DNA of 64,000 bases from positions 453,605 to 517,604 of the forward strand of contig JAQGEQ010000314.1 in assembly GCA_034620365.1 (NCBI GenBank), in the 5' to 3' direction. Both the position numbers and the translations under genes were made by a program. Each line of letters opens with the position of its first letter. The stretch's first letter is position 1. The notes beneath the pieces were generated by a model that worked only from the letters and a program-made list of their open reading frames with translations, made no database searches and was not told the origin of the DNA. The DNA comes from Pegea sp. RAD2-039 (taxonomy: Eukaryota > Chordata > Thaliacea > Salpida > Salpidae). Below, in pieces: positions 34,072-59,692 of this stretch.

Positions 34072-37000
34072 ATGCTGCAACTTTTTCAATGGATTTCTTT
34101 GGTGGTTTTGTTTACTTTCACTTTGAGTGGAAATTGTGAGTAACTAACAAATCATTAAAAAACAATTAATTTACTTTCTAAAATCATTAAAATTGAAAAT
34201 AACTTTTAGATACCGTTCTCTTGTTCTGATAATTAATATTTAAAGAATTTAAATTATAATTTAATTTGACTCTAAATTATTGAAGCTTTTCTTTTTTTAA
34301 TTAATTTCGAAATGCTTCTATTTAAACAGATGATTTTGCAAGACATTATGATAGCAGTAGACCTTGTAGGCCTGAAGACGGATATCACAAATGCCGAGCT
34401 GCAAGAATTGGTTACAATTTTAGAATTGGTGATGAAGTTTGTGTTACAAGATATTTGTCTAAAAGGCAATGTGGAGTTACATTGAAATGTACCGATGATG
34501 AACTTCTGTGTCAAGAAAGGTGAAAAATAAATTTTGCTTATTTGTAATTGCATATTTTAACAGAATTTATAACATATTTAAAGTTTTAATTCCTTCATTG
34601 ACTAATTTTTTTCATACTATTTCATTAATTCTTTCATATTTTTTGCAAAATTAAAAAAAAATAGAATCGTTTATTCAAATAAGGTTAAGTAGTTTCTAAT
34701 TCTGCAGATTCAAAGTTTAAACAAATATTAAAATCAAAATCAAAACTAAAAAACGTTTAATTTAAAACTTAATATTTTTCTATTAATTTTGTTCAAACCA
34801 TTCATCGATTAATTTTCTCAAAAGTTTTTAAGTTTGCTTCAAATGATTTTGTAATCAAACTTAACTTCTGGGTTAAAATTAAAACTTTCATAGAAAACTG
34901 AATAAAAATTGAAGCAAGACAAACTGATATTTGTTGTGATTAATTTAATTGAGATATTTAAAAAAGTTGACTAGTTTACTTGGGTGAAGAAAATAATTTA
35001 AAAAATTGATCAAAAATATTCTTAAACGAATTGTTTAAGCAGATGTGTGAAACGAGAATACATACATTCTGATTGTGACAAAATAACTTCCACTTTTTTA
35101 CAACTTCGATGTCATCCTGATGAATTTCTGTGTCCGAAAACTAACAAATGCTTTACAGGAATAGTACGGAGTAGTCGTTCGTATATATATTTTTGGCATT
35201 ATTGTCAGATTAAAAAGGTTTGTAATTTAAAAAATAATATTTAATTAAAAAAATGACGTTTTCATTTACTGGTTTATAAAAACAAAAATTAAACGGCCTA
35301 CACTTTGATAAAGAAAAATTTATACAACATTAAATATCTAATATTATGAATAATACTTAACTTCTTATATTAATTTATAATTATATCAGTTAAATTACAA
35401 TTCTTAATCAAAACGAGTTTGTTTTAAAAAATAATTTCAGTAAGACTATACTCATTATAAAATATTTTAGTTAAGAATTTCAATTTTTGTCAGTTTTTTC
35501 AAAATAAACGCAAGCTAAAAGAAATTGTAATTTAAAATAAAATGAAAGATTGTTGAAAGCTAAATAGAATAAAATAAATAATTAGTTACAGAAATATCGT
35601 ATTTTTTGAAATATGATCGATACATAAGGAATGTTTTTAAAATATTTGAATTATCTCTTATATTTTATATTATGTTTCAGTATGATGAATTTGGAAAGCG
35701 AATATATAAACTTATTGATTCATGCGATAATGCTACAATGTATCAATGTCTTGATAAATACAACAGATGTATTCTTCGAGAATGGGTGAAGGATGGAGAA
35801 AATCATTGTAAGAATGGTGATGATGAAGCTGGTAGTTTAATATGCTTTAATCAGACTGAGTTTACTTGTAAGGATAATAATCGATGTATTCCTCGATATC
35901 GTGTCAATGATGGTTTCAGTGATTGTAAAGATAGTTCAGATGAAAGTAATACTCAGACAAATTGTTTTTTCCATGAGTTTAAATGTAATTTAGATAAAAG
36001 GAACAAAACCCGTTGTATACCTAGATCCTGGGTGGGTAACTCAATTAGAGATTGTGAATCAGGAGAAGATGAAAGTCATAGATTCGAAAAATGTATAGAA
36101 AATGAAGTTGAATGTTTAGATAAAAGCAGATGTCTTCCACAAATACTAATTTGTGATGGAATCTTGAACTGTAAAGATGGAAGTGATGAAATTGAAATGT
36201 GTGATCTGAATAATTATGTGAGAAGTTTCAGAGGTGAAATTGTTTTCGTTACTTCAAAGTCAATATTTAGTGGATTGAAAAACTTTTACATCGAAGGGTT
36301 ACAATATTATTCTAATCTTGTTTTCGGTGATAATTGTCAACTAAAAACTAATAGCTTTATTGGATTACCAAATAAATTCCAAAATCAAACAACTCCTGAT
36401 AGCAACATGTGTTCAAATATACAAGAAAAATGTTTAAACGAACAAAACCAGTTTATTTGTTCAAAATGTTTAGATAACAAAACTATAATATTCAACTCAC
36501 AAGTTTGTGACAACATAATCGATTGTCCCGATGCATCTGATGAATGTACATGCGAGAAATCTTCAATTGAATCGCTTTGTCAGAAGTTTTATCCAGATTT
36601 AACATCAGGTGATTCAAAAAATCTCCCAAAACATCATTTTGAAATACTTTGTAATAATATTGATGATTTAGAAAATGGAACAGACGAGAATGTTTGCAAC
36701 AAACAAGTTTTGTCTTTGTTATTTGACTCAAACCAAAAAAATAAAACACTGCATACTTGCTCATCACACAATTTGAGAAAAAACGAAACTAATAGAGTCA
36801 TTTCAGTTAGATCATGTGACCATAAAATTGAATGTCACTTAAAAGACGATGAATGTTCAGAACTATGTATCAACAGCAGCTTAAAATGGTCAGAAAATGG
36901 ATTTGCAGAAACTTTTAATCAAAATTTTGATAATTTTAGTTTAACTGAATGCTTTCCATTTTTACGACTAACAAGCAGTTTATCTTCTAAAAGATCTCTG

Positions 37001-38653
37001 TACTTAGTGATAGATTACAAAAACTTACCGCCAAGTTTATTTTTAGAAAATAAATTACTAGATATTTCAAGCAAAATTATGATAGAAAACCAAAACCTTT
37101 ACAATAATAAGTCACTTATTACGATGAAAATTGATCGTTACAAAAATATCACAATCAAATCGATGTTAGATTTTTGTAACATCCGAAAGTATTTATGTTC
37201 ATGGAGGTTTTATTGTAAGTCAGAAGAAATTGAAAGTATCGACTTGACTAAAGTTTGTGATTACAATGTTGATTGTCTAGATAGTTCAGATGAAATGAAC
37301 TGCTCGAAAAAGACTCATTTCTACTGCTGGAATAACAATTCCAAGTTTATTGAAAAAAGCAAGTATTTGGATGGTCGAAAAGACTGTTCTGATGGTTCAG
37401 ATGAATGTTTAAACTACTTTTCATCGGTATATGAGATGATTAAAAGCGACTTTCTTCGTTACTTTATTTGGTTTGTCACAGTTCTTACAATAACTGTTAA
37501 CATTTATGTTATTTGGAAGCATTGTTTGAAATTAAAAGAAGCTGAAAGTAAAAGTTCAGTGAAGTATGTGAATACATTTCTTTTATGCCAGCTAGCAGTT
37601 TCTGATTTAGTAATGGGAGCCTCTTTGTTGATACTTGGTGTCAATTCATTTCAATATTCAGGTCAATATTGCATTCATGATCTTGAATGGAGAGCAAGTA
37701 CTACTTGTAACGTGGTTGGTGTGCTTGCTGTGTTTTCATCTCAAACATCAATGACTACTTTAGTATTAATCACAACTTTGAGATTGTATGTTACTATTTG
37801 CCCATATAAAACTAATCGATTAAACCACAAGCTCATCAGACTTGTTTCATTGCTTTCTTTGGTGTTTTGTTTCCTGTTTGCAATGATTCCAGTTTGGTTC
37901 AAATATAAATTTGCTGACCAACTTTATATTGAATCAAATCCTTTTTTCCTAGACCAATCGGTAAATTACAGCACAATTGAAATGTTTTATAAAAAAACTA
38001 AAGTAATTCTCAGTAACCTTCCTAATACATCATCAATGTTCAACAACAGCCTTGGTACAAACTTCAGCTATCAATTCATTAAAACTTATTTCGAAAGTGG
38101 AAAAAGAGGACCTCTATTTCAGTCCAGAAATGTTAAAATCAAAAACGCGTTCGGATATTTCAGTACCTCTCCTGTTTGCTTTCCAAATCTTTATACAAGT
38201 ATTTCATCATCTCATTTTATTCTTTCATTGATCATTATAACTTTCAATACTTGTTCACTTTTATATATTTGTGCAGCTTATAGCTACATTTTCTACACTA
38301 CTAAGAAAAGCTCAAAATCTGTTAAACAATCAAAAAATACAAATCAAATGGGAAAAATGAAATTACGAGTTTTCCTCATCATTTTAACAGATATGTCTTG
38401 TTGGTTACCAGTTATAATCATGTCTATTATAAGCTATAGTGGATACAAACTTGATGGTGAAGTACTTCCTTATTCTGCTATCATTATCCTACCAATCAAT
38501 AGTGCAATAAATCCAATCATTTATTCAGGTATCGATAAAACCATTACAAACTTCATTAAATTAAAATGTTGTAGAATCAAGCAAGAATCAGTCAAAAAAA
38601 CTGAAAATATTGAACTTAAAACCATTAAATCGGCTGGAACAAAATTTGAATAA
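34072..38653 (+). CDS. LDLa-repeat seven-transmembrane receptor, copy 1 (LGR type C/GRL101-like)
   Basis: Four exons: 34072-34135, 34330-34519, 35043-35217, 35681-38653, giving 1,133 codons. Exon 1 encodes a signal peptide (MLQLFQWISLVVLFTFTLS). Exons 2-3 encode a Cys-rich region. Exon 4 encodes about eight or nine LDL-receptor class A modules, several with the Ca-binding pattern (CKDGSDE, CLDSSDEMNC, CSDGSDEC), then seven helices from about residue 735. Between modules four and five is a stretch with LRR-like spacing (SIFSGLKNF, NSFIGLPN) but no full LRR array. TM2 has LAVSDLVMG, TM6 TDMSCWLP and TM7 PINSAINPIIY, as in LGR/relaxin-type receptors. The TM3 end reads LRLYVTICPY in place of DRY. 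Ectodomains of this type bind secreted ligands at the cell surface; ligand and G protein are unknown. Confidence 0.9.
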
Positions 38654-40024
38654 TATACATCATATCACAAATAATGGTTTTAAATGGTATTTTTACACTT
38701 GTAATCAGAATTTGTTTTATGGTTTGAGTCATTGTGTATTTGTCTGTTTTTGTAACATAAACTTTCAATGTTAAAAATTTAAAAAGTCGTTAAGTGTGCT
38801 TCAATTTAAGTTTTCCGAAAAATTTTTTCAATTAAAAAAATATTTAAAAAAATATCAATTTTTACTTTGAGGTAGGTTTACTATTTGTATGTATATAGTA
38901 TTTGTTCATCGTACTATTTCAAACATTTATAATCAAAATGTAAATAAAAAATGTATGAAATGCGAAATGACATTGTTCAATTTTGTGCAAAATTCATATA
39001 GCAGTGAACTGCAGAATAATAATAAAACGAAAAGTTTTAAATAAACTGATTTGTGTTTAAGAGCTTTTTTTTAGTTTGATTGTGTTTTGGGTAATCTGAA
39101 ATCTATTATTACAAAAGAAACAAAGCTTTAGCTGGATGAAGAACTGTATTAGATATAAAAATACAGAAGCAACATTAATTAAGAATAAAAATAAAGTTTT
39201 TATAATTACGAAATTATTTTGTGAGTTAAGTTTTTAGTGAAACATCTTAATAGAATAAAATAGGAAGTAGCGGAAGTTTAATTAACGCTTGATAGCTTCA
39301 AATTAGAAAATCAAATTATTTTGATATTTAAATTACTTTCTTAATCAATATGAAAGCAGTCATTTGTTAACAACTAAAAATATATAACAAACACTAACTA
39401 CTTTATTTACCAGCTAAAACTTTATCTTTAACTAATTTAGGTCAAATTAAGTAAACAGAATTTATTTTTAAATTTTCTTTTACAGTAGGGATACGTTTAT
39501 TCAAAAATATAATTTTAATTTTAAATTTCATTAAACAAATTTTTCTGACTGCTAAAACTTATTTGGTAGTTTGGTGAAAATAAATTCATCAATTTATAAT
39601 AAAAGTTTCGATAAGAAAAGTTTTCTATAGCTACGTGTCATAACAGAGTTTTTTAAAAATTAATTTTTTTAATCTCATGTCATCAAAATATTAAATTTTA
39701 TATTTCATCTAGAGTTTTGTTTATATTATTATTTGATTTTATCAAAAACAGTTTTGAATTAAATTTTTTTGAACTTTAGTATATTAATAATATTTTATTT
39801 CTTTTTAATAGGACTGAAAATATTTGTATTTTCGTACCAAGCTGAAAATATGGATTTTTAAATTGAGAAACTGTTTTGAAATTAATAATTTGAAGATTTT
39901 CAATGGAAAATTAATAAAATACACAAAAAGTAAAATCTACAACTAACTTTTAAACAATTAAACAAGTATCAGTCAAATCAAAACAATAAGTTTTTCTATT
40001 AAACTTGTATAAATTTTCTAGACA
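38654..40024. other. 3' flank of receptor gene 1
   Basis: AT-rich. A possible poly(A) signal AATAAA lies near 38,943. The flank matches 59,693-61,050 closely and 29,214 onward more distantly. At about 39,490-39,500 it is the unoccupied site of the LINE found at 29.8 kb. Confidence 0.6.
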
Positions 40025-41450
40025 TAATACCTCCCTTGCTTGACAACAGCGACCAGCTTGTGATGAAACCAGAGAATAAAGCTGAGTTGCTAAACAATCA
40101 ATTTAATATCGTTTTTATTTCCGATGATGGCATCACTCCTTATTTTTCCTACTTCGAAATTCTTACAAATGTCTCTGAAATAATTGAGTATCTGAAATGA
40201 TAGTCAAGTCACCAGTAGTATGCCTCAGAGTTCTGTTTTGGGTCCCCTTCTCTTTTCAATTTTCATTAAGACCTCATCAGAAGACCACTGACAGTAGATG
40301 ACGTCAGTTTCACCTCATTGGCACCTCAGAATCCATCCCACAAAATCTGATCTTATCAACTTTTTCTCTTAAGCCAGCTGCAAATTCTTTAAACTAATAT
40401 TCCATACATTGTTTTATTTTCTTACAAATATCTTCGGTGCAAGACTTTGGTATTAACCTATCATCTGACTTTAAATGACAAAATTATGTTTTAAAAATCT
40501 TTCCAAAATCAATCAATCTTGCCTAGTTTATTATACGAAATTTTATTTCTAAAGATTCATACTTCTTTGTAAATCCTTTCGAATTGTAGGTACGTTCAAT
40601 TTGTGAATACCATGTTAGTGCATCCATGTCATATCAAGTTAGTGATATTAAAAAAATTGAGTCTGTTCAGGCCACATTTACGAGAGTAGTATGCAGGAAA
40701 CTTAATATTAATTACGATAGTTATAAACATCATCTTAGCTTCTTAAATTTAGATACTTTGGAAATTCGACGAACTAAATACGACTTAATTCTTATTTTTA
40801 AAATTGTTCAAAATTTATTTGACTTTTAATTCAATGATTTCGTTTCCATTAGTCCTTCCCTCAAGTTATATCAGCTCAGACGACCAACATTACATTTTAA
40901 TAAGCCTATATCACCTGCTATGATAATCAGATCAAATTGTTTCTGACAATTAGAACTTGGAACCAGCTGCCATTAGACATTGTCATGTCAGAATCACTTG
41001 TATTATTCAGGCAGAAGTTGAACCGTTATAACATGTTCTGCTTGGTGGCGAAGCGGTTACTACACCTACCTTCTAGCTAGGAAGTACCGTGTTCGACCCT
41101 AGGTGGAGACATATTTATAAAACTCCTGAGAAAAACCATAAGAAACTCGTGAGAATGTATGTTAGCGAGATATGCTTTCTTTAGCTACCCTCCTTTGCAT
41201 TTAATTATATAAAAAATCGAAATATTGCCAACACTGCCATTCCTAAACTGCGTTTTTTCTCTTGTTTTTATTATTAACATTCTATTTAATTGTTCACTGT
41301 TATATGCTTTGAAGACTACCGAAATACTATGTGTTACATCTTTTTCTTTCTATATTTCTAACTTGAGAAATATTATTTGTGAGAATGTGTGTTAGCGGGA
41401 TGTACTATCTTCAGGCACTCTCGTTGGCATTTATTGAAATAAAAAATAAA
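40025..41450 (+). mobile_element. Decayed LINE relic containing a nested SINE
   Basis: Fragments of the same LINE family in order: a part upstream of the RT core (VMKPENKAELLNNQFN), then the RT motif resembling PQGSVLGPLLF (read here as PQSSVLGPLLFSIF), then the C-terminal region (VSDIKKIESVQATFTRVV) and the 3' tail near 41,380-41,450. Many stops and deletions break it. A SINE interrupts it at 41,034-41,218. Confidence 0.8.
41034..41218 (+). mobile_element. tRNA-derived SINE with LINE-type 3' tail, nested in the LINE relic
   Basis: The head (about 41,040-41,110) has tRNA layout: TGGCGAAGCGGTTA (A-box region), an anticodon arm CCTAC-CTTCTAG-CTAGG (anticodon TCT, Arg type) and a TTCGACC T loop. 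The tail (about 41,146-41,210) repeats the LINE 3' end: GAGAATGTATGTTAGCGAGA, TGCTTTCTTTAGCTACCCTCC. The host LINE resumes directly after it (AATATTGCCAACACTGCC), with a short AATAT-like repeat at the borders. Confidence 0.8.
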
Positions 41451-41774
41451 TAAATAAATAATAACAACAGTTTGCATTTAGAATCATCAAAATTTCGTTG
41501 TTCAATTAAAATTTTAGAATTAATCAGAGGAGTCTAAATTGTAGTATTATATTTGAATAACATTTTTATAAAGCAACTTTAGCACTTGTTAAAAAGAAAT
41601 AAAGTATTTCTGTATTTCAGTAATAAATGTTTAGATTTAAAGAATTAAACATTTATGCTTTTGTTTGTCATCTTAGTTCCTAACTCAAAAGTTCAACTTA
41701 AAATTTGTTATAGAATAAAATATTAAGCTTTTGTTCATTTTAAACTATGTATATATAAGATATCACAGTATATT

Positions 41775-42640
41775 GTGATTGTTTCTGCTACTATAATTCC
41801 TGTTGTTTTTTGTTATTGTTGCTCCTTTACTTTTCAACTATTCTATCTTAGCTTTATTTATCGTGTCTTTTATTTGTCTTTTTCATCACTGTATTCTTTT
41901 TGTCTTCTGTATTTTTGTTGCTTCAGTTCTTGCTTCTTACAATTTGTCTTTTTTTCTGCCTCTTTTAATTTTACTTTTTTAATCGTTTCAGTTGTTTCAG
42001 TTGCCTCTTCTTGTTTCTGATATAGCTATCTCCAGAGCTATACTGAGAAAAATTGCAATTATATTTGAAGATTCAGCGAGATTAGGACTTCTTAGATGTA
42101 ACTATCTACTGGCTGTGTTACTTTTTGGAGTTATATTTATTAATTATTTTAAGTTTTTTATTCTTGTTTCTGATATAGCTATCTCCAGAGCTATACTGAG
42201 AAAATTTGCTGTTATATTTGAAGATTCAGCGAGATTAGGACTTCATTTGTTTTTTTTTCGGATTTTTCTTTTTTCGCGTATTTTACGTGACTTACGTACT
42301 TTTTTTTTCCTCTTTTTGTTTGTGTTGCTTTCATGTTTGCCTATTTTTGATTATCTAATTTAATCTTCACATCTTTTTCTTGCCTAGTTTTAGATTACCT
42401 TTTTTTATTGCTTATTTTATTTTCTGCCTCTTTTAATTTTACCGGTTTGTTCTGGCTTTTCGTTTTGGGGTTTCCTATTTTCACCTTTAATTTTTTGCTT
42501 TTTCCTGTTTTATAATTGTTTCTATCGTTATTACTTTTTTATTTTTGCCTCTTTGATAATTTTGGTTTTTTCCTTGCTTGCTTTTCACCTTTTTCATGCT
42601 AATCTTTTTTATGATAGCTTCATATTTTAATCTTGGATAT
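41775..42640. repeat. Pyrimidine-rich tract, present in both blocks
   Basis: The forward strand is dominated by T and C (TCTTTTTG, GCCTCTTTTAATTTTA). Its complement would encode Lys/Glu/Gln-rich peptides, with one 36-codon reverse frame at about 42,480-42,600 (MKKVKSKQGKNQ...). This resembles the composition of the nearby coiled-coil gene, so it may be a relic of it. No intact gene is supported. Confidence 0.35.
42005..42245 (+). pseudogene. Two stray copies of an sNHE2 exon
   Basis: The second exon of sNHE2 (22,163-22,300) with preceding intron sequence is copied twice: about 42,007-42,138 and about 42,148-42,244. Each copy retains the intron end TTCTTGTTTCTGATATAG and the exon start encoding AISRAILRKI; the first runs to LLFGVIF, the second stops after SARLGL. 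Intron sequence is included, so the copying was from DNA, not mRNA. Block 2 lacks this insertion. No exchanger exons surround it. Confidence 0.9.
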
Positions 42641-42649
42641 TTGTGGATA

Positions 42650-42945
42650 ATTTAAAAAATAAGAATTAAGTTGTATTTAACGCGTTGAATTTCCAAAGTA
42701 CCTAAATTGAAGAAGATTAGACGCTGTTAATAACTATTGTATTTAATATTAAGTTTCCTGCATTACAATCTCGTAAATGTTGCCTGAACAAACTCGATTT
42801 TCTTGATATCACTAACTTGATATAGCATCCAAACACTAATATTGTATTTAATTATTGGATTACGTACAGTTTGAAAAGATTGATAAAAAAGCATGGGTCC
42901 TTAGAATTAAAGGTCTTTTTAATAAGGTAGACAAGGTTGAATGAT
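42650..42945 (-). mobile_element. Reverse-strand LINE fragment, decayed
   Basis: Its complement matches the LINE C-terminal region: CATTTACGAGATTG, GCAGGAAACTTAATATTAAA and GTTAGTGATATCAAGAAAAT are recognisable. Frames are broken. The same fragment is at 63,428-63,722 in block 2. Confidence 0.75.
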
Positions 42946-43309
42946 AATATCTATGTTTCTTGAAATAAATACATGTGCAACTTTCTCAAACAGAGTTTTT
43001 AATAACTAACTAAACTTTGTTCTACTTTGATAACCAACCTTAGAATTTTCCTAAGAACAATTTAACTCTCAACAAATTTTTTGTTGAAATATTTTATAAA
43101 CATATCAGTTTCTTTATTTTCTTTACATTTTGTGTACTTTTAAACCCTAACTTCCTGGTATATTTTCTGTTAGTTTATTATAATTAAGATCATTTTATTG
43201 TCTTTCTGCTAAAGTTACTATGACCGTTATAACAGTTGTATAATTTTTCATAAGAAAGCACATTTTGACCTTTCTACCAAATTAACAATTTGACAAAATT
43301 TAATGCCAA

Positions 43310-43445
43310 CCAGAAGAGAATCAGGATACAACAGTTTCTACAAAGTTTCAGTAATAACAACGACTAAGAAAATTTGAGAATGCAAAAGAGCTTTCAATTG
43401 GAAAATTATGTTAATAATCGACCGCACGTTGAATAACACACCGAA
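43310..43445. repeat. Dispersed repeat, copy 1
   Basis: About 100 bases (ACTAAGAAAATTTGAGAATG, then AATTATGTTAATAATCGACC) resemble 49,640-49,715 in the same orientation. The two copies flank the coiled-coil locus. The element type is unknown. Confidence 0.5.
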
Positions 43446-43921
43446 TGCAGTAACCCCATGTATTATACAACTCTCTTCCTAAAAAGTATTTTATCACAAC
43501 TTACAGTGTTTAAGATAATATAACATATACCTTTATTCAAATACAACTAATTTATAATTTGATCTTATTGCAAGCCCTATTTGTAAATGACAAACTTATT
43601 AAAATAGAATCATACTAATTTTAAATTAAATTTGTACTTAAAGAATAGGTCAACTTAAACTTTTGACAATATATTTACTACGAAATGAAAAAATCATTAA
43701 ATTTATTTCAACTCTAATTTTCGTTTATTAAATTTTACCATTACTTATTGAAAAATTCGAATAAAACGCAAGTTTGATTTAAATCTTAATACAAGACAAA
43801 CTAAATATCAAATTAAAAAAGTAATGCTTGAAAAATCAGAAGAAAATGCTCAACAAAAAGCATTCGTAAGTTTTAGTTATTCTTTTTAAATTTTATTATA
43901 TTTTTTCTGTGTTTGTCTTTC
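43446..43921. other. Spacer beside the coiled-coil pseudogene
   Basis: AT-rich with no gene. On the reverse strand an AATAAAA near 43,885-43,895 could be the old poly(A) signal of the coiled-coil gene. Confidence 0.35.
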
Positions 43922-44369
43922 TTATTGTCGTTGTCTTTGCTGGTGGGGTTGTTGTAATATTTTTTCTTGTTGTCGTTTATATTCCTGTATTTTTAACAAA
44001 AGTTGTTGTAGTCGTTGTTCTTGCTGTTGCTGTTGTTGTGTTTCTTGTTGTTTTCGTCTTTCCAGGTAACGTTGTTGTCTTTCTTGTTGTTCACGTCTTT
44101 CATTTTGTTCTTGCATTTGATGTTGTTCTTGTGTTTCTAGCTGAACTAAGATTAATTGTAGATCTTGCTGACGTTTTGATTGTTCTTGCTGTCCTTGTAA
44201 TAGTCCATCTTGTTGTTCTTGGCTTTCTTGTTGAAGTTGTTTTAATCGTAGCACGTGTCGTTGACATATTTTTGTTTGCCACAGACTGTGTTGCATCTGC
44301 AATTCTAGCTGTTGCTGTTGTTGTCTTTCTTATTGTTCTCGACTTTCTAGTTGTTCTTGAGTTTCCAGG

Positions 44370-45190
44370 TAATGTTCTATTAATTGTTGCACGTGATGTA
44401 GAAACTCTTGTGTTCCCTGCTGACGTTGTTGTCGTTGTTCCTCCTGTTGTGCTTGCCCATCTAGTCTTTGTTGCTGTTGGTTTGTTTCTCGGTAAAGTTG
44501 TTGTAATTGTTGCAAGTGACGTAGAAAATCCTGTGTATCTAGCCGAAGTAATCGCAATTGTTCCTCTTGCTGTTCTCGTCTATCTCGTTGGTAAAACATT
44601 TGTTGCTGTTCGTATATTTCTAGGTAAACTTGTTGTAATTGTCGCAAATGATTTAGAAAATCCTGTATTTCCTGCTGAAGTAGTTGTCGTTGTTGCTCTT
44701 GCTGTACTTGTCTATCTTGTTGGTAAAACCTTTGTTGCTGTTGGTTTGTTTCTCGGTTAAGGTGTTGTAATTGTTGCAAGAGTTGTTGAAAATCTTGTAT
44801 TTCCTGCTGATGTTGTCGTCTTTGTTGCCCCTGCTGTACTTGTCTATCTTGTTGGTAAAATCTTTGTTGTTGTTCGTTTGTCACTCGATAAATTTGTTGT
44901 AATTGTTGCACGTGCTTTTGATAGTCTTGTATTTCCTGCTGACGTAGTCGTCGTTTTTGCTGCCGTTTTACTTGTCCATTTTGTCGATCATATCTTTGTT
45001 GTTGTTCTTTTGTTTCGAGATAAATTTGTAGTAATTGTAGAACGTGTCCTTGAAAATCTAGTAAATTTTTCTGAAATTGACTTCGTTTTTGCTGCAACTG
45101 TAAAAGTCCATCTTGTTGCTCATCTTCTTGTTCTTCTTTGTAAAGTTGTAGTAATTGCAACAAGTATTTTTGACAAACTTGTAATTTGCA
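44370..45190 (-). repeat. 132-bp tandem repeat encoding a 44-residue coiled-coil unit
   Basis: The forward word GTTGTAATTGT or GTAGTAATTG recurs at 44,500, 44,632, 44,764, 44,896 and 45,028, exactly 132 bases apart, with shorter end units at about 44,378 and 45,148. Each unit encodes a variant of YRxTNxQQQRFYQQDRQ followed by QQEIQDFxxxLQQLQxL. Units have diverged at many positions, so this is an old protein repeat. Confidence 0.85.
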
Positions 45191-46139
45191 CAGAGCCTTT
45201 TGTGTCTGCTGCTCTAGGTTCTGCTGTTCTTGTCGTTCTAATTGTTCTCTTCTTTCACGGTGATGTTTTTGACTTTGTCGGTGACGTTTCAGTAATTGTA
45301 TCACTCGTGTTGGATACTCATTTATATCACGCAAAACTAGTAACACCGATCTTTGTACATCCCACAAACGTTGGTCTTGTCGTCGTTGTTGCTGCTGATA
45401 ATCTTCAAATTGTTGTATATAATGATGTACTCGTAGAACTTCTCGATGATACTTTTGTACTTCCCACAAACCTCGTAGCAGCATTCTTTCTTGTTGCTGC
45501 CATTTTTGTCTGTATTGTTGTTCTGGTTTGTCTTGTTGTTCCTGTCTATCTGGTTGTTCTTGTCCTTCTGGTTGAATTTCTGGCAACTGTAGCGCTTGTT
45601 GTTGAAACTCTTGTATATCCTGTTGAAGTTGAAGCCGTAGTTCTTGAAGCTGCTGTTCATTTATAACTTGCTGTCGTCTTTCTTCTTTCTCTTGTTTTTC
45701 ATCTTCTTGATGTAAGTCATTTCCACCCCTAAAAAATATTGAATTAAATTATTTCTAACTTATTAAGCTGCAGTTGTGGGTAGTAACAGTTATACTAATA
45801 TAATATACAAGTTAATATTTTAAAACTGTTTAACAATTTGCTTTACAAAATTATTGTTTTCTTACATAATTCAGTTTCTTTATTTATTTCTTCTTGAATA
45901 ATAATAAACGTACAAACTTGTCTAAGAATTTTTTCAAGTTCTTAAATTTAGATTATTTAAAACTTTATAAGTCTACAGAAAGAGTTTTGTTAGTCTCTAA
46001 TCTCTTAAAGCAGTCTCGTTAAGGCATAGGTACAAAAACAGTAACTGTAAACTGTTCCTAAAAAATATTGATTAAAATAACATGTAAAGTTAAAAGCAAA
46101 ATGATAGAATTGATTAAAGTTATTAATTAAGTTAATTTA

Positions 46140-46300
46140 AGTCACTGTACTCAGTGTCTTCTGACAGCCTATTGGCAGCTCCTGCGACGCTAGCCGAGGA
46201 CAGCTACATCAGTCCATTTGTTCTGCTGCAGAATCTTATTGGCGTAGAGAGTGGAATCCTGGTGTATTTGAAGCAACTGAATCTCCAAGTTTTCTTTCCT
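46140..46300. other. GC-richer patch, unrecognised
   Basis: A short patch inside the coiled-coil locus (for example CAGCTCCTGCGACGCTAGCC) differs in composition from its surroundings. It is open forward over 46,154-46,351, but I recognise no family. It may be part of an insertion in an intron of the coiled-coil gene. Confidence 0.25.
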
Positions 46301-49600: not shown

Positions 49601-49609
49601 GAAGATAAG

Positions 49610-49720
49610 GTGATAGGACAGAATGTAATGAGACAGAATACAACTAAGAAATTTTGAGAATGCAGAAGAGATTTTAATTTGATTATTATGTTAATAATCC
49701 GCCCATAAAAAATACTTCGA
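49610..49720. repeat. Dispersed repeat, copy 2
   Basis: Partner of 43,310-43,445 (ACAACTAAGAAATTTTGAGAA, then TTATGTTAATAATCCGCCC). It overlaps the end of the unrecognised protein fragment on the reverse strand, suggesting that both belong to one decayed element. Confidence 0.5.
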
Positions 49721-49945
49721 ATCCAAGAGAAGAATTATCTTTTTGACGCTTGTGAGATTTTATGAAAACTTCTGTGAACTGATCTTTTAGGCTAGAAGGA
49801 TGGTTTTCACAATTTTGTGCTGAGAAGAAGTGAAGATTATTTGCAACTTCAGTTGAAATTAAAAGAAATCTTGACACTTCCCGAGTCCCATGATGCCCTC
49901 CAACTTTGTAACAAAAGTCAGCTGGTTGTCTCTTATGATCTCGTT
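49686..49945 (-). pseudogene. Unrecognised protein fragment, probably from a mobile element
   Basis: The reverse strand is open from about 49,945 to 49,686 and encodes a non-repetitive, well-mixed peptide (DFCYKVGGHHGTREVSRF, HFFSAQNCENHPSSLKDQF, NSSLGFEVFF). Codon use and composition look protein-coding, unlike the surroundings, but there is no start or splice context. I do not recognise the family. Confidence 0.35.
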
Positions 49946-51023
49946 TATACGCCTTTTTATCTTCGTTTTAAGTTTTAAGTTGCATCTTGCTACCGTTCTT
50001 AACGTATATATAATCACTGAGATCTATTTGACAGGTTTCTTTCTAGAGACAGAAACTAGACCTTTGTATTGAGGTTTGCAACAACGTTGCCAATTTCAGA
50101 TCTAAATTTGGCTAATTCAGCGGATATCGATTAGCTGATGTCGGATAATCAGTTTGAATTAGAATTAGAAGAATTCGATGAATGGTTCTAGATTTAATAA
50201 AGAACCATTTAAACCCCGTTTGCTTCATTTAGTTGTCACCAAATTGTCATAATTATTCTTACGCATTTAACTAAGATGTTTTATTTATTTATTTAAAAAT
50301 TCGTATTTGTTATTGCAATCTTGTTTTGATGAACATTGGATATTGAAGTTTACATTATACCTGAAAGTAATCATAAAATTAAATACTAATTCTACTACCA
50401 GATGGAAAAAACGTTTCAATTATTTTTGTTTGGTTATTGTCATTTATAATACCTATAAATAATCGACAATTATCATTAACACACTAATATTATTATTTCT
50501 TGAATTTTAAATATTTCAAGACATTTGTTTGATCTTTTAAAATTTCTTTAAATAGAATTTGTATTCATTGGAGGCGGTACAAAGTCTTTTGTAATTTTCA
50601 GCCCGAAACCTTCCCTAGTTTGGCTTTGCTTGGAGTCTTTCATCATATTCTAATGAGATTGCTGCTACTCCTGCAGCTTCGACAGATCTACCAGTACCTA
50701 AGTGTTGGTTGTTCCGCCATGCATCCTCATATTATCATTCTATTAGTGTCTGATTATTATTGCGCTAAGCTCAAATAATAAGTTAAGTCACCTGACAACA
50801 ACTTGACAAACAAAATTATCATAATTTAATTAACTGTAAAAATAACCAATCGTAAAGAAAACTTTATTCTTTAAAAAAATGCACGAAACAACAACAACAG
50901 ATAGTAGTAATTAGCAACCTAACTGTAAGTACAATGAAATAATAATAAGATACTTATGTATAGGTTAGATATAACGAAATAAATATCAATTAGAAATATA
51001 TTATTATTATCGTTTACATTAAA
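49946..51023. other. Intergenic region
   Basis: AT-rich apart from a patch at about 50,570-50,760 with CTCCTGCAGCTTCGACAGATC. No supported gene. Confidence 0.4.
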
Positions 51024-51571
51024 ATGAATCCATTTTCCCAAACTATTCAGTTGGTTACATCACAATTGAAAAGATATATCACAAAACGTTATCAGAAAAG
51101 TAATTTTCCTAATACATCATTAATATTCAACTACAACCTTGGTACAAACTTCAGCTATCAATTCATTAAAACTTATTTCGAAAGTGGAAAAGGAGAACCT
51201 CTATTTCAGTCCAGAAATGTTAAAATCAAAAATGCGTTCGGATATTTCAGTACCTCTCCTGTTTGCTTTCCAAATCTTTATACAAGTATTTCATCATCTC
51301 ATTTTATTCTTTCAATTATCATTATAACTTTCAATACTTGTTCATTTTTATATATTTGTTTAGATTTTGGCCACATATTATGTTTCATTATCAAGCTCGA
51401 AATGTCAAATAAATCTAAAAATGCATTAAAAAATATCAGTTATAATCCTGTTAATAAGATTTATAATAAATATAAATATATTGTTCTCTTATCATTACCC
51501 TTCTAATAAATTCAATCATTTATTCATTTTATCGATAAAACCATTACTACCTTTATAAAATAATTCTTTCT
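51024..51571 (+). pseudogene. LDLa-7TM receptor pseudogene fragment
   Basis: 51,100-51,360 encodes the second extracellular loop and TM5 of the receptors nearly unchanged (NLGTNFSYQFIKTYFESG, KIKNAFGYFSTSPVCFPN). The similarity then breaks and resumes only as remnants of TM7 (ATTCAATCATTTATTC, ATCGATAAAACCATTACT near 51,510-51,545). The ectodomain and TM1-4 are absent. Like copy 2 it reads GKGEPLF in the loop rather than copy 1's GKRGPLF. Confidence 0.85.
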
Positions 51572-52189
51572 TAGAATGATACAAAGCATGAATGTTAAAC
51601 TTGAAAGTATTTACAAATATATTCTAAATGTAAAGAAAAATCTATGAAATACTAAATAAAATTATTCAATTTTCAGTTTTCTAAATGTTTAAAAATTGTA
51701 TAGCATTAAAATTCAGTAAATATAATAATAGTTTAGAAAATATTGATTTGTGTGTGAGAACTTATTTTTATTTTGATTGTGTTTTCAGTAATCTGAAATC
51801 TATTATTACAAAAGAAACAAAGCTTTAGCTGGATGAAGAACTGTATTAGATATAAAATTACAGAAGCAACATTAATTAAGAACAATAATTTTAAGTTTTC
51901 ACTTTCAAATAATATTAAAAAGTTTTGTGATTTGAATACTTTTATGACACATTTTATCATGATAAGATAGGAAGTAGCGGAAGTTTAATCACCGCTTGAT
52001 AGCTTCAAGTAAGAAAGTCGAATTGTTTTAATCTTTGAAAATCTTTGTTTTGTTTTAATGAATATTAAAACAATAATTTGATAAAAACTAAATATGTAAT
52101 AATCACTAACTACTTAATTTACCAGCTAAAGTTTCTTTTTATCTAAATTAAATATTAACAAGTCTTATTTTTAAACGTTTATTCATAAT

Positions 52190-53262
52190 AACTTCTCTTT
52201 TTGATTTTCATTGAAGACCTCATCAGAAGACTGATAACAGTAGACAATGTCAGTGTGTTTGTGTATGCAGATGACATCAAGCTATTATCTGGTTCTCACT
52301 CAAAACTCCAAACTGCACTGAATATTGTAGAAAACTGGTCTGCGAATTGGCAACTTAAAATCCAGCCAACAAAGTCTGAAGTTATAACATTCTCCCGTAA
52401 GCCAGCTGCCAACTTCAGCAACCAATACTACATCAATGGATCTATTCTTGAACGAGTATCCTCAGTCATAGACCTCGGCATTACTCTGACATTTGACTTC
52501 AAATGGCACAGTTATGTTTCCAGAATTTTTGGAAAATCTATCAAGCTTGTCCACCTCATCATAAAGACTTTTAATTCTAAAGATCCATGGTTTTACGTCA
52601 ACCTTTTCAAACTGTACATACGCCCTATTCTTGAATACAATGTCAGTGTATGGATGCCATATCAAGTTGGTGATATCAGAAAAATCGAATCTGTTCAGGC
52701 AACATTTACGAGATTGGTTTGCAGGAAACTTAATATCAAATACGAGAGTTATCAGCATCGTCTCAGCTTCTTCAATCTAGATACTTTGGAAATCCGAAGA
52801 ATTAAATACGACCTTATTCTGATTTTTAAAATTATTCACAAACTAATTGATCTTCAGTTTGATGACTTTTTCTCCATTAGTCCCTCCCTCAAGTTATATC
52901 AACTTAGAAGACATAAATTACATCTTAATAAGCCCACTCCACCAGCTACGTTAACCAGATTAAGTTTTTTCTCATACCGCACAATCAGTACATGGAACAA
53001 TCTGCCATCAGAGATTGTCATGTCAAAATCACTTATGCTGTTCAAGAAAAAGCTGAATTGTTATAATATCGCCAACATTGCCATTTCTAAACTGTGAATT
53101 TTTCTCTTTTACAATACTATGATTCTGTGCAATTCTTCATTGTCATATGCTTTTTCGTTTACACGTCAAATCGATCTAATTTGTGAGAATGTGTGTTAGC
53201 GAGAGGTGCTCTCTTTAGGCACCCTCCTTCACATTTATTGTAATAAATAAAGAAAAAAATAA
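52190..53262 (+). mobile_element. 5'-truncated LINE with intact 298-codon remnant frame
   Basis: Same insertion as at 29,788, with the same flanks (AATAACTTCT-like repeats), so it entered before the block duplication. The frame 52,201-53,097 is uninterrupted through YADD, GITLTFDFKWH and the C-terminal region, and keeps TGG where the block 1 copy has TGA. It lacks the 5' part of the reverse transcriptase and any endonuclease, so it cannot be autonomous. Confidence 0.88.
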
Positions 53263-55106
53263 ATAATTACGTTAAATAACTTCTTTCAAATTTATTATTT
53301 CATTTTTAAATTTTGATAAACAAATGTATGTTGTCATCTCACTGCTAAAACTTAATTGGTAGATTAGTGGAAATAAATATATACTTTCATGATAAATGTA
53401 TTGATAAGAATTTTTTTTAAACCTACGTGTTATAACAAAGTTTTAATCACTTTCATTTGGTTTAAATCATGCCATGAAAATATTAAAGTTTTTATATTTC
53501 ATCTGAAGTTAAAGATTATATGATTTATATCAAAAGTATCTATTAATTTTTATTTTTATATCTTTTGTGTTTAGTGTAATAATCAAACTATTTTCCTTTA
53601 AACTCAATTAAAATAATCTGTGTCTTGGTACCGAGTTGCAAATATTAATTTTTGAAAGTAATTTTTGAAATCATTACATTGAAAATTTTATTGTTAAAAT
53701 ACACGAAAAGTAAAATCTACAATTGGAATTACATCTAATTAACATCCTCAAATTCAAGCTGCTCACTAAAACTACTCTTTTATATGAATTTTAAATGATG
53801 TCAGAATTTAATGATGTCAATTAAAATGATCTGTGTCTTTAACTTTAATAATTATTATTTACTTAAATTTTTAATAATATTTTTAATTAATTCAAAATCT
53901 AAACATTTTTATGCAAATGTAAAATTACAAGTATAATGCTAATTTTGAAATAACAATTTGCTCTTTAAATATTAGAAATATAAAACATCATTTTTTAGTT
54001 TTAAATAAAAATTAAATTCACGGTTTTTAAGATATAAATATTTGTCAAATTGAACTCTAAGTTGATTTTGAAATTATGTTCGATGTTTGTTCGGAAATTA
54101 GTTTTAAAATTAATTCAGAATGATTCCAAAATTATAAAAACAAAATGTAAATTCGAGTTACTTTTAATTTACTTTTAATACAATTATATTTTCAATTTAA
54201 TTAACATGAATAATTTGAATAGCTAAATCAGAATTTTAAAATTTGTTTTTAAACCATTATATTATTTCATAGATTTTTAAAAGTATTTGTAATTTCACGA
54301 AACTATTCAGTAAATCATCAACTTATTTTCTTCACGTTTTTACTTAAATACTTATTGGATTGATTCAACTTCCTATCTTTGTGGATAAAATAGTTCCTTA
54401 GCAAACCTTTTGTGCCTTCAAATTAATTAGTTGTTTAAATTGAGAGCTTTTCTTAATTTTCTTTTTAAGTTTTGAGAAATTTTTGTTTGAAAAATAAATC
54501 TTAATCTAAATGAATGTTAGAAATACTATTAGAGTTTTGTTTTTATAAATTAAGTCTTTTATTTGAAATCTAAGAGCAGAAAACTAACAAATGGTAAACT
54601 ATATTAGAGTTGAATAATTGACTAAAATTTATTTCAGTTTGTAATTAGTCTTTTAAAGGTCAAAAAAATTACTTATTTTGATAAAAATATTAATTCACAA
54701 AATTATAATTCTAAATTTGTATATTTAGTTTATTAACTCTCTTTTAATTTTGTGCAAATAATTTTAAAACCCTTCTTTTATCTGATTAAAGGGTGGTTAT
54801 TTAGTTTAAAATTATAATTTAAGTAATTATAAGTTTTGGTAACTTTACAATCATGTGTGAAATTAATATGTTTCCTCTAAGCTTAAATCTTTATTATTTA
54901 AAGTCAAAAAAGTTTCTTGATTCAAAGCACATTAATTTTTAGAGTTTTTTTGAAGATATATTTCAATTATTTAATTTCCTGTAGTTTTTTTTTAATTTTA
55001 AATAAAACATTTGCTGTAGGTGTAAAAACTTAAACTAATCTGATTTCAATTTCAGTTTTGTTTTAAGTGCTTTAACTGAAAACAATAATATAAGTTGTAT
55101 TTGAAA
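53263..55106. other. 5' flank of receptor gene 2
   Basis: AT-rich, matching 30,863-31,350 and 32,230-34,071 closely. It includes the same TTTCAATTTCAG about 50 bases before the ATG. No coding content. Confidence 0.5.
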
Positions 55107-58100
55107 ATGCTGCAACTTTTTCAATGGATTTGTTTGGTGGTTTTGTTTACTTTCACTTTGAGTAGGGATTGTGAGTAACTAACAAATCATTAAAAAACAA
55201 TTAATTTACTTTCTAAAATCGTTAAAATCGAAAATAACTTTTAGATACCGTTCTCTTGTTCTGAAAATTAAAATTTAAAGAATTTAAATTATAAAACCTG
55301 TTTTTAATTTGACTCTAGATTATTGAAGCTTTTTTTTTAATTAATTTCGAAAGGCTTCTATTTAAACAGATGTTTTTGCAAGACTTTATGATAGCAGTAG
55401 ACCTTGTAGGCCTGAGGACGGATATCACAAATGTCGAGCTGTAAGACGTGGTTACAATTTAAGAATTGGTGATGAAGTTTGCGTTACAAGATTTTTGTCT
55501 AAAACCGATTGTGGAGTTACATTAAAATGTACCGATGATGAAGTTCTGTGTCAAGAAAGGTGAAAAATAAACTTTGCTTATTTGTAATTGCACATTTTAA
55601 CAGAATTTATAACAAATTTAAAGTTTTAATTCCTTCATTGACTAATTTTTTTCATACTATTTTAATAATTCTTTCAATTTTTTTGCAAAATAAAAAAAAT
55701 AGAATCATTTATTCAAATAAGGTTAAGTAGGTTCTAATTCTGCAGATTCAAAGTTTAAACAAATATTAAAATCAAAATCAAAACTAAAAAATGTTTAATT
55801 TAAAACTTAATATTTTTCTATTAATTTTGTTCAAACCATTCATCGATTAATTTTCTCAAAAGTTTTTAAGTTTGCTTCAAATGATTTTGTAATCAAACTT
55901 AACTTCCGGGAGAAAGTTAAAACTTTCCTAGAAAACTGAATAAAAATTGAAGCAAGACAAACTGATATTTGTTGTGATTAATTTATTTGAGATATTTAAA
56001 AAAGTTGACTAGTTTACTTGGGTGAAGAAAATAATTATAAGAAATTGAACAAAAATATTCTTAAACGAATTGTTTAAGCAGATGTGTGAAACGAGAATAC
56101 ATACATTTTTATTGTGACAAAATAACTTCCACTTTTTTACAACTTCGATGTCATCCTGATGAAGTTCTGTGTCCGAAAATTAACCAATGCTTTACAGGAA
56201 TAGTACGGAGTAGTCGTCTGTATATATATTTTTGGCATTATTGTCAGATTAAAAAGGTTTGTAATTTAAAAAATACTATTTAATTAAAAAAATGACGTTT
56301 TCATTTACTGGTTTATGAAAACAAAAATTAAACGGCCTACACTTTGATAAAGAAAGACTTATACAACATTAAATATCTAATATTATCAATAATACTTAAC
56401 TTTTTATATTAATTTATAATTATATCAGTTAAATTACAATTCATAATCAAAACGAGTTTGTTTTAAAAAATAATTTCAGTAAGACTATACTCATTATAAA
56501 ATATTTTAGTTAAGAATTTCAATTTTTGGCAGTTTTTTCAAAATAAACACAAGCTAAAAGAAATTTTAATTTAAAATAAAATGAAAGATTGTTGAAAGCT
56601 AAATAGAATAAAATAAATAAATAGTTACAGAAATATTGTATTTATTGAAATATGATCGATACATAAGGAATGTTTGTAAAATATTTGAATTATCTCTTAT
56701 ATTTTATATTATGTTTCAGTATGATGAATTTGGAAAGGTAACATACAAAAGTTTTGATTCATGCGATAAAGCTACAATGTATCTATGTCCTGATAAATAC
56801 AAAAGATGTATTCTTCGAGAATGGGTGAAGGATGGAAAAAATGATTGTTTGAATGGTGCTGATGAAGCTGGTAGTTTAATATGCTTTAATCAGACTGAGT
56901 TTACTTGTAAAGAAAATCGTCGATGTATTCCTCGATATCGTGTCAATGATGGTTTCAGTGATTGTAATGATAGTTCAGATGAAAATCATACTCAGAAAAA
57001 ATGTTTTTTCCATGAGTTTAAATGTAATTTAGATAAAAGGAACAAAACCCGTTGTATACCTAGATCCTGGGTGGGTAACTCAATTAGAGATTGTGAATCA
57101 GGAGAAGATGAAAGTCATAGATTCGAAAAATGTATAGAAAATGAAGTTGAATGTTTAGATAAAAGCAGATGTCTTCAACAAAAACTAATTTGTGATGGAA
57201 TCTTGAACTGTAAAGATGGAAGTGATGAAATTGAAATGTGTGATCTGAATAATTATGTGAGAAGTTTCAGAGGTGAAATTGTTTTCGTTACTTCAAAGTC
57301 AATATTTAGTGGATTGAAAAACTTTTACATCGAAGGGTTACAATATTATTCTAATCTTGTTTTCGGTGATAATTGTCAAATAAAAACTAATAGCTTTATT
57401 GGATTACCAAATAAATTCCAAAATCAAACAACTCCTGATAGCAACATATGTTCAAATATACAAGAAAAATGTTTAAACGAACAAAACCAGTTTATTTGTT
57501 CAAAATGTCTAAATAACAAAACTATAATATTCAACTCACAAGTTTGTGACAACATAATCGATTGTCCCGACGCATCAGATGAATGTACATGCGAGAAATC
57601 TTCAATTGAATCGCTTTGTCAGAAGTTTTATCCAGATTTAACATCAGGTGATTCAAAAAATCTCACAAAACATCATTTTGAAATACTTTGTAATAATATT
57701 GATGATTTAGAAAATGGAACAGACGAGAATGTTTGCAACAAACAAGTTTTGTCTTTGTTATTTGACTCAAACCAAAAAAATAAAACACTTCATACTTGCT
57801 CATCACACAATTTGAGAAAAAACGAAACTAATAGAGTCATTTCAGTTAGATCATGTGACCATAAAATTGAATGTCACTTAAAAGACGATGAATGTTCAGA
57901 ACTATGTATCAACAGCAGCTTAAAATGGTCAGAAAATGGATTTGCAGAAACTTTTAATCAAAATTTTGATAATTTTAGTTTAACTGAATGCTTTCCATTT
58001 TTACGACTAACAAGCAGTTTATCTTCTAAAATATCTCTGTATTTAGTGATAGATTACAAAAACTTACCGCCAAGTTTATTTTTAGGAAATAAATTACTAG

Positions 58101-59692
58101 ATATTTCAAGCGAAATTATGATAGAAAACCAAAACCTTTACAATAATAAGTCACTTATTACGATGAAAATTGATGGTTACAAAAATATCACAATCAAATC
58201 GATGTTAGATTTTTGTAACATCCGAAAGTATTTATGTTCATGGAGGTTTTATTGTAAATCAGAAGAAATTGAAAGTATCGACTTGACTAAAGTTTGTGAT
58301 TACAATGTTGATTGTCTAGATAGTTCAGATGAAATGAACTGCTCGAAAAAGACTCATTTCTACTGCTGGAATAACAATTCCAAGTTTATTGAAAAAAGCA
58401 AGTATTTGGATGGTCGAAAAGACTGTTCTGATGGTTCAGATGAATGTTTAAACTACTTTTCATCGGTATATGAGATGATTAAAAGCGACTTTCTTCGTTA
58501 CTTTATTTGGTTTGTCACAGTTCTTACAATAACTGTTAACATATATGTTATTTGGAAGCATTGTTTGAAATTAAAAGAAGCTGAAAGTAAAAGTTCAGTG
58601 AAGTATGTGAATACATTTCTTTTATGCCAGCTAGCAGTTTCTGATTTAGTAATGGGAGTATCTTTGTTGATACTTGGTGTCAATTCATTTCAATATTCAG
58701 GTCAATATTGCATTCATGATCTTGAATGGAGAGCAAGTACTACTTGTAACGTGGTTGGTGTGCTTGCTGTGTTTTCATCTCAAACATCAATGACTACTTT
58801 AGTATTAATCACAACTTTGAGATTGTATCTTACTATTTGCCCATATAAAACTAATCGATTAAACCACAAGCTCATCAGACTTGTTTCATTGCTTTCTTTG
58901 GTGTTTTGTTTCCTGTTTGCAATGATTCCAGTTTGGTTCAAATATAAATTTGCTGACCAACTTTATATTGAATCAAATCCTTTTTTCCTAGACCAATCGG
59001 TAAATTACAGCACAATTGAAATGTTTTACAAAAAAACTAAAGTAATTCTCAGTAACCTTCCTAATACATCATCAATGTTCAACAACAGCCTTGGTACAAA
59101 CTTCAGCTATCAATTCATTAAAACTTATTTCGAAAGTAGAAAAGGAGAACCTCTATTTCAGTCCAGAAATGTTAAAATCAAAAACGCGTTCGGATATTTC
59201 AGTACCTCTCCTGTTTGCTTTCCAAATCTTTATACAAATATTTCATCATCTCATTTTATTCTTTCATTGATCATTATAACTTTCAATACTTGTTCATTTT
59301 TATATATTTGTGCAGCTTATAGCTACATGTTCTATACCACTAAGAAAAGCTCAAAATCTGTTAAGCAGTCAAAAAATACAAATCAAATGGGAAAAATGAA
59401 ATTACGAGTTTTCCTCATCATTTTAACAGATATGTCTTGTTGGTTACCAGTTATAATCATGTCTATTATAAGCTATAGTGGATACAAACTTGATGGTGAA
59501 GTACTTCCTTATTCTGCTATCATTATACTACCAATCAATAGTGCAATAAATCCAATCATTTATTCAGGTATCGATAAAACCATTACAAACTTCATTAAAT
59601 TAAAATGTTGTAGAATCAAGCAAGAATCAGTCAAAAAAACTGAAAATATTGAACTTAAAACCATTAAATCGGCTGGAACAAAATTTGAATAA
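55107..59692 (+). CDS. LDLa-repeat seven-transmembrane receptor, copy 2
   Basis: Four exons of exactly the same lengths as copy 1: 55107-55170, 55370-55559, 56082-56256, 56720-59692; 1,133 codons. Domain layout is as in copy 1. By eye I count about 37 amino-acid differences in the first ~240 residues (3, 9, 6 and 19 in exons 1, 2, 3 and the start of exon 4) and about 18 in the remaining ~890, including the loop change GKRGPLF to RKGEPLF. Changes in the first LDLa module include GENHCKNGDDE to GKNDCLNGADE, touching the acidic Ca-binding end. The seven-helix core is nearly unchanged, so both probably signal alike while binding different ligands or variants. Both copies look intact. Confidence 0.9.

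Follow-up and report, generated by a model that had tools for sequence, protein, structure and literature searches.

A tandem, mosaic family of relaxin-receptor-like genes with a hypervariable N-terminal tip in Pegea sp. RAD2-039

Several described systems come close to the receptor genes that we report here, a pair (genes A and B) in a window of 64,000 nucleotides from Pegea sp. RAD2-039 (Chordata; Thaliacea; Salpida; GenBank assembly GCA_034620365.1, contig JAQGEQ010000314.1, positions 453,605 to 517,604 of the forward strand) and the tandem array family to which the pair belongs. According to published summaries, type C2 leucine-rich repeat-containing G-protein-coupled receptors (LGRs), exemplified by GRL101, combine multiple LDLa modules and leucine-rich repeats (LRRs) with a seven-transmembrane (7TM) domain (PMC4079206, PMC11863921), and the type C1 LGRs RXFP1 and RXFP2 carry one LDLa plus LRRs, the LDLa being the activating element and proposed to be presented to the 7TM domain (PMC4561518); high levels of selection are reported in summary for the LDLa-LRR region of vertebrate RXFP1/2-type genes (PMC3449138). 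The same kind of source describes 46 LGRs, defined by their LRRs and expanded in placozoans, in Trichoplax adhaerens (PMC9545775), and V1R genes as clustered G-protein-coupled receptor (GPCR) genes that undergo duplication, loss, gene conversion and adaptive change (PMC2644715). Among the papers listed by full-text word searches of open-licence literature, none had a title or abstract opening that described a hypervariable LDLa-7TM array. V2Rs, which are class C receptors with a Venus-flytrap domain, have a variable ectodomain, and to our knowledge the hypervariable animal receptors with a GPCR output are mostly chemosensory or pheromone receptors of another architecture.

The array family resembles each of these systems in part. 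Like the type C2 LGRs, it places several LDLa modules ahead of a class A 7TM domain of the LGR/relaxin-receptor type, but it differs from them in its tandem arrangement, in its hypervariable tip and in having no LRR detected in gene A, in exon 4 of gene B or in two paralogues. With RXFP1 and RXFP2 it shares the best match of the 7TM domain, the N-terminal LDLa and, probably, selection in the LDLa-bearing region, whereas it has several LDLa-like modules, no detected LRRs and, as judged by eye, LRL at the DRY position. Because LRRs between the LDLa modules and the 7TM domain were looked for and not found, we do not file the family as LGR type C. The large lineage-specific expansion of LGR-type GPCRs recalls that of the placozoans, whose receptors are LRR-defined and whose summary description includes no hypervariable LDLa tip (PMC9545775). 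In its behaviour the array family works like the tandem recognition-receptor repertoires of the V1R and V2R type, with clustered, duplicating and diversifying GPCR genes, although its ectodomain is unrelated and it is class A with LDLa modules; of the features of such repertoires we found many tandem copies and, for exons 2-3 against constrained null models, diversifying selection.

Our analysis shows that these receptors have a tip of hypervariable residues (encoded by exons 2 and 3 and the exon 4 start) in which the cysteines are conserved, as is the remainder of the receptor, that the amino-acid-changing diversity of the tip exceeds the diversity of the neighbouring introns, and that the variable exons are differently combined among copies. 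Judged from sequence, the family is probably a tandem mosaic repertoire of relaxin-receptor-like GPCRs without detectable LRRs, in which cysteine-framed tips have been diversified by substitution together with exon-scale exchange.

The receptor pair and its array

Gene models rebuilt from the sequence give genes A and B, both on the plus strand, four exons each of 64, 190, 175 and 2,973 nt (1,133 codons) with GT/AG intron borders. Gene A comprises exon 1 (34072..34135), which is signal peptide-like with a hydrophobic stretch over residues 1-19, the hypervariable exon 2 (34330..34519), the hypervariable and length-variable exon 3 (35043..35217) and exon 4 (35681..38653), which consists of a variable start with LDLa modules (codons 144-240, 35681..35971) and a remainder, conserved across copies, with more LDLa modules, linkers and the 7TM region (codons 241-1133 plus the stop codon, 35972..38653). 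In gene B, exon 1 lies at 55107..55170, the hypervariable exons 2 and 3 at 55370..55559 and 56082..56256, and exon 4 at 56720..59692, again with a variable start (codons 144-240, 56720..57010) and a conserved remainder (57011..59692).

The concentration of residue changes near the N-terminus, which the preliminary description had pointed out by eye, is real and not a product of chance. Its counts of 37 residue differences between A and B in codons 1-240 and 18 in codons 241-1133 are exact, as are the 19 residue differences and 2 silent changes that it gave for roughly the first 100 codons of exon 4, counted here over 97 codons (144-240); the identical exon lengths and similar introns are likewise confirmed, introns 1-3 differing by only 3.1, 3.5 and 3.0%. 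Nonsynonymous (dN) and synonymous (dS) divergence amount to 0.080 and 0.060 in codons 1-240 and to 0.0084 and 0.027 in codons 241-1133, and the flanks of the two genes diverge by 2-3%. Nonsynonymous divergence in codons 1-240 is greater than intron divergence (Fisher p=1e-4), and silent divergence there is not significantly above that of the introns (p=0.14) or of the rest of the gene (p=0.11). Taken alone, the pair gives no significant excess of dN over dS (one-sided p=0.29 for codons 1-240 and 0.14 for codons 144-240); since such an excess could not be demonstrated from A and B, the whole family was needed for the test.

A search of the genome (an assembly of 105.7 Mb in 387 contigs) with the exon 4 protein placed genes A and B among at least 44 places of the gene family, some of them partial, and added two distant relatives, C47 and C265, at about 50%. 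The lists obtained with the exon 4 protein, the exon 4 DNA, the first kilobase and the stretch from exon 2 to intron 3 as queries overlapped to a large extent; the figure of 44 places is a lower bound in which a few places cut by contig ends may be single genes counted twice. Several contigs hold 2-4 copies at a spacing of mostly ~10-21 kb. The window sits at the very end of its contig, which ends inside the array (window position 64000, C374:517604), and most of the other copies were found on contigs 16-63 kb long, a sign that the array may interrupt the assembly and that it is probably unresolved there, with an uncertain copy number. We rejected alleles or haplotigs as a general source of the copies because a 3-kb part of the window that lies beyond the array is present only once in the genome.

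We fetched 44 loci; one that held two partial copies was dropped and refetched as two (L048, replaced by L052 and L053), and 43 were aligned. Open from the ATG through exon 4 were 25 of these, including L031, which is cut at a contig end; three more are truncated by contig ends, and the others are broken. Exon 3 measures 169-217 nt in intact copies, changing by multiples of 3, and in L042 and L044 the splice dinucleotides lie off the aligned position, so that the exon 3/4 border is uncertain. The coding sequences of L017 and L031 are identical and those of L030, L033 and L034 nearly so, and one of each set was kept for counts. Our counts therefore use 17 intact close copies, namely the 25 minus L031, L033 and L034, removed as identical to or less than 0.6% from another copy, and minus five diverged copies (L039, L042, L044, L045 and L046); unless stated otherwise, the values below refer to these 17.

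Diversity, selection and exon exchange in the tip

Along the gene, the mean pairwise difference (pi) is 0.033 in the 5' flank, 0.051 in exon 1, 0.061 in intron 1, 0.126 in exon 2, 0.056 in intron 2, 0.112 in exon 3 and 0.042 in intron 3; within exon 4 it is 0.076 in codons 144-240, 0.026 in codons 241-300 and 0.019 in the rest, and the 3' flank stands at 0.054. Divergence is higher than in the introns taken together in 122 of the 136 copy pairs for exon 2, 131 for exon 3 and 118 for the exon 4 start, and in none of the 136 for the exon 4 body. Nonsynonymous diversity (piN) is 0.0996 and synonymous diversity (piS) 0.0804 in codons 1-240 (piN/piS 1.24), as against 0.0134 and 0.0424 in codons 241-1133 (piN/piS 0.32); with all 25 copies the ratio is 1.05 in codons 1-240 and 0.82 in the exon 4 start. 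Exon 2 occurs in 17 distinct amino-acid versions, exon 3 in 16 and the exon 4 start in 17, and the body is also distinct in 17/17 copies, through far fewer changes. In the tip, residue change thus exceeds the neutral background, and silent change is raised less. The exon 4 body is under purifying selection and is not specially homogenised, because its silent diversity equals that of intron 3. Gene conversion homogenising the rest of the gene, which the preliminary description had offered as one explanation, is accordingly not required: the silent diversity of the body (0.042) falls within the intron and flank range of 0.03-0.06, and we rejected a homogenised body on that value.

The family is strongly mosaic. 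In the pairwise homoplasy index (PHI) test of the whole gene, none of 500 permutations matched the observed value, neighbouring informative sites being far more compatible than permuted ones; the signal also appeared within the exon 4 start and the exon 4 body, and none was found within exon 2, exon 3, intron 2 or intron 3 (58, 299, 159 and 150 of 500). Pairwise distances in exon 2, exon 3 and the exon 4 start are only weakly correlated with one another (0.09-0.20), and a copy usually has a different nearest neighbour from one exon to the next: L016 and L018 are 1.6% apart in exon 2 and 15.4% apart in exon 3, while L014 and L015 are 1.1% apart in exon 3 and 14.7% apart in exon 2. Copies on the same contig are not clearly more similar than others (8 versus 292 pairs). 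Recombination is real, but its visible effect is that the variable exons are combined differently among copies.

For the selection test, eight disjoint nearest pairs gave 355/4646 nonsynonymous and 62/1108 synonymous changes per site in codons 1-240 (omega, the ratio of the two rates, 1.37; p=0.009); single exons were not significant alone (p=0.09, 0.08 and 0.38). A codon-grid likelihood model, fitted to 22 copies with a separate tree per partition, gave a statistic (twice the difference in log likelihood) of 35.2 for exons 1-2, 27.5 for exon 3 and 21.4 for the exon 4 start, compared with 0.1-5.3 in five body partitions, and it placed 27 sites with posterior >0.9 in codons 1-240 and 9 in codons 241-1133. 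Because recombination inflates tests of this kind, they were calibrated against simulated neutral data: the statistic stayed at or below 6.9 in simulations without recombination and reached up to 75 with 10-codon recombination blocks. As the latter match or exceed the observed statistics, we rejected the face-value significance of the site model as sole evidence and used only block sizes consistent with the four-gamete fractions seen in the data (0.378 in exons 1-2, 0.419 in exon 3 and 0.405 in the exon 4 start), which are ~30 codons for exons 1-2 and the exon 4 start and 20-30 codons for exon 3, with 20 replicates per null. When half of the sites were constrained, which we take as realistic because the cysteines are conserved, the 95% points for exons 1-2, exon 3 and the exon 4 start were 18.6, 7.2 and 21.6 with 30-codon blocks and 32.5, 14.8 and 24.1 with 20-codon blocks. 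Exons 1-2 and exon 3 exceed both constrained nulls.

Several results weigh against diversifying selection as the source of the variable tips, or narrow its reach. The exon 4 start lies within the constrained nulls at both block sizes; when omega was set to 1 at every codon, the 95% points rose to 33.5, 17.7 and 40.9 with 30-codon blocks, leaving the exon 4 start unexceptional, and to 58.0, 30.4 and 51.4 with 20-codon blocks, at which none of the three partitions is exceptional. The average omega over codons 1-240 is only modestly above 1 (codon bootstrap 95% 0.92-1.71), and when the mask of variable exons was shifted along the gene, 123 of 2544 shifts were as good as or better than the true position, a marginal result. 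In a separate group of six copies (C63/C46), of which two are broken and two have an uncertain exon 3/4 border, exons 2 and 3 again differ more (0.166 and 0.219) than introns 2 and 3 (0.12-0.13), but the exon 4 start, at 0.077, lies below these introns. In addition, 15 of the 43 aligned loci are broken by a frameshift, a stop or lost exons, and silent diversity too is higher in codons 1-240 than in the body, about twofold, so that part of the excess in the tip reflects age or resistance to homogenisation. In summary, the earlier proposal of diversifying selection on the N-terminal region stands at the family level, where piN/piS contrasts with that of the body and the disjoint pairs are significant; its expectation of a dN/dS well above 1 does not, and its emphasis on the exon 4 start has to move to exons 2-3, where the evidence is strongest.

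The raised silent diversity, in a family that clearly recombines, is also what would be seen if there were no positive selection at all and old copies persisted in the 5' exons while conversion homogenised the introns and the body. We consider this unlikely. Within the same codons, and hence the same genealogies, piN exceeds piS, as the disjoint pairs also show, even though the codon bootstrap interval includes 1; the introns that separate the variable exons show no great age (0.056 and 0.042), so that age would need to change abruptly at one exon border after another. Had silent and intron divergence risen equally between exon 2 and the exon 4 start, this reading would have gained support, but no such rise was seen.

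Receptor architecture and older paralogues

The 7TM region of gene A (about codons 737-1094, 37460..38533) has relaxin receptor 1 as its best match among solved structures (E 5.5e-25), followed by the LH/CG, FSH and TSH receptors, and Pfam finds 7tm_1 (E 4.5e-13) and six stretches of Ldl_recept_a (E 1.4e-24) in gene A; the exon 4 modules match LRP2, VLDLR and LDLR. No LRR family was found in gene A at E up to 0.1, or in exon 4 of gene B and two paralogues up to 1; at the former threshold gene A matches four Pfam families, none of them a class C 7TM or ligand-binding domain. The motifs CWLP and NPIIY are kept in 25/25 copies. At the DRY position (gene A residues 843-847, located by eye), all 25 aligned copies have LRLY, with L, V or I as the next residue.

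With such a 7TM match, and with LDLa summarised as the activating module of RXFP1/2 (PMC4561518), the array could be an endocrine receptor of relaxin- or glycoprotein-hormone-like type that was amplified for dosage, the divergence of the tip being incidental subfunctionalisation. At least 44 places, and 17, 16 and 17 distinct versions of the tip exons per 17 copies, are unlike a hormone receptor, and the LRR hormone-binding domain was not found in any of the sequences searched for it; we regard this explanation as very improbable.

The cysteine spacing of the ectodomain may be read as seven LDLa-like modules, of which the last is canonical and the six before it have four cysteines each. This reading is more tentative for those in exons 1-3, since residues 1-173 had no credible match when their sequence was compared with solved structures. 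Of the 30 cysteines in residues 1-330, 28 are invariant, the exceptions being C121 and C139, and mean entropy is 0.53 bits over the non-cysteine residues of 1-240 as against 0.073 over all residues of 241-1133. C121 and C139 flank a hypervariable loop in exon 3 (codons 122-138, 35152..35202 in gene A) whose surrounding framework is kept. The high-posterior sites of the tip are densest in the C121-C139 loop (9 of 27), the C43-C69 interval (6) and the linker that precedes C158 (3). Among the 20 close intact copies, near-duplicates kept, L014, L015, L017 and L031 have lost both cysteines and no copy has lost just one, which would fit a disulphide pair; of the five diverged intact copies, two (L042 and L046) lack only C139, and the broken copies L049 and L050 likewise miss one of the two singly, so the diverged copies argue against a strict rule.

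Three single relatives, on C12, C47 and C265, show 47-50% identity with gene A, the frame on C265 holding one stop. The large-exon 7TM layout of the array genes recurs in relatives on C1, C12, C38, C39, C47, C81 and C265, of which three were read (L054, L056 and L057); those on C1, C38, C39 and C81 have frames of ~900-1,020 aa with the same split 7tm_1 match, and the array thus seems to be a recent expansion within an older family. We compared three ancient paralogues with array piN in 60-residue windows of exon 4, since exons 1-3 align too poorly. Paralogue identity is highest in residues 204-323 (67-68%), where array variation is moderate, and array piN is highest in residues 144-203 (0.098), where paralogue identity is 41%; in five windows of lower paralogue identity (22-38%) array piN is only 0.009-0.025, and across all 16 windows the two measures are not significantly correlated (Spearman -0.23, p=0.40).

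These data bear on the possibility that the N-terminal tip is dispensable and weakly constrained and drifts neutrally. A mean omega near 1 and the lack of a credible structural match for exons 1-3 would agree with such drift, and so would the fact that residues 144-203, the most variable part of exon 4, are only middling in paralogue conservation and below most modules and the 7TM region, which counts against diversifying selection there. Because the less conserved windows barely vary in the array, however, the variability of the array does not simply lie where the protein is loosest; 28 of the 30 cysteines and the framework of the exon 3 loop are retained, and the variable exons change faster than their introns. 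Mere relaxed constraint thus appears quite unlikely.

Surroundings of the genes and possible function

The two genes lie in array units at 31367..41997 and 52398..63023 (plus strand, 97.2% identical), and between them, upstream of reverse-transcriptase sequence, lies a remnant of another copy (51099..51359, plus strand), a 261-nt piece of exon 4 with 95% identity. This piece is contained in a 170-aa open frame at 50994-51506 and apparently belongs to a truncated copy. Reverse-transcriptase fragments (RVT_1) of a retrotransposon-like repeat, 97-98.5% identical to each other, accompany the array units at 29215-32720 and 51691-53756, and diverged copies (~70%) of the repeat sit after each receptor gene, at 40370 and 61404. 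The window also contains a low-complexity tandem repeat at 43870-45748 with a period of 132 nt (copies at 44421, 44553, 44685 and 44817); the minus strand of this region holds a glutamine-rich 472-aa open frame, for which no Pfam family matched at E up to 0.01, and its plus strand has hydrophobic frames. The G+C content of the window, 28.7%, is similar to that of Brachionus genes (26.4-29.2%; PMC6555955), a likeness that says nothing about origin. The assembly yielded no match to COX1, no bdelloid spliced-leader sequence at up to 1 mismatch and no site for the mmr-b forward primer of PMC3495898 at up to 3 mismatches.

We propose that the product of each gene consists of a signal peptide, a tip built from LDLa-like modules framed by cysteines, a longer LDLa-bearing ectodomain and a class A 7TM domain of relaxin-receptor/LGR type. 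The tip would contact ligands and the conserved body would transduce the signal, a single 7TM output being retained. New tips may arise by point substitution together with unequal exchange or gene conversion, which would shift exon-sized tracts among members of the array, and selection may favour new residues at exposed loop positions. If recognition involves many or ever-changing partners, a fast-changing tip joined to a near-constant signalling part is to be expected, and the tip may therefore bind numerous or changing ligands, such as foreign, pathogen, prey or conspecific surface molecules. The preliminary description had likewise called the tip ligand-facing and suggested self/non-self, gamete or pathogen recognition, roles that we treat as inference. 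A part in mate recognition would appeal only in a rotifer, to which nothing but base composition points here. More speculatively, exon-sized LDLa-like cassettes, each with a conserved cysteine frame and hypervariable loops (of variable length too in exon 3), might be joined in changing combinations to an invariant signalling body by recombination within the array. Recognition of mates, of self and non-self or of pathogens would then draw on a combinatorial set of specificities, an idea that we hold only tentatively.

In this family a relaxin-receptor-like body without detectable LRRs bears a hypervariable, recombining LDLa tip. If its ligands are indeed foreign or conspecific proteins, the family would provide an entry point to recognition in an animal group whose receptors are poorly known.

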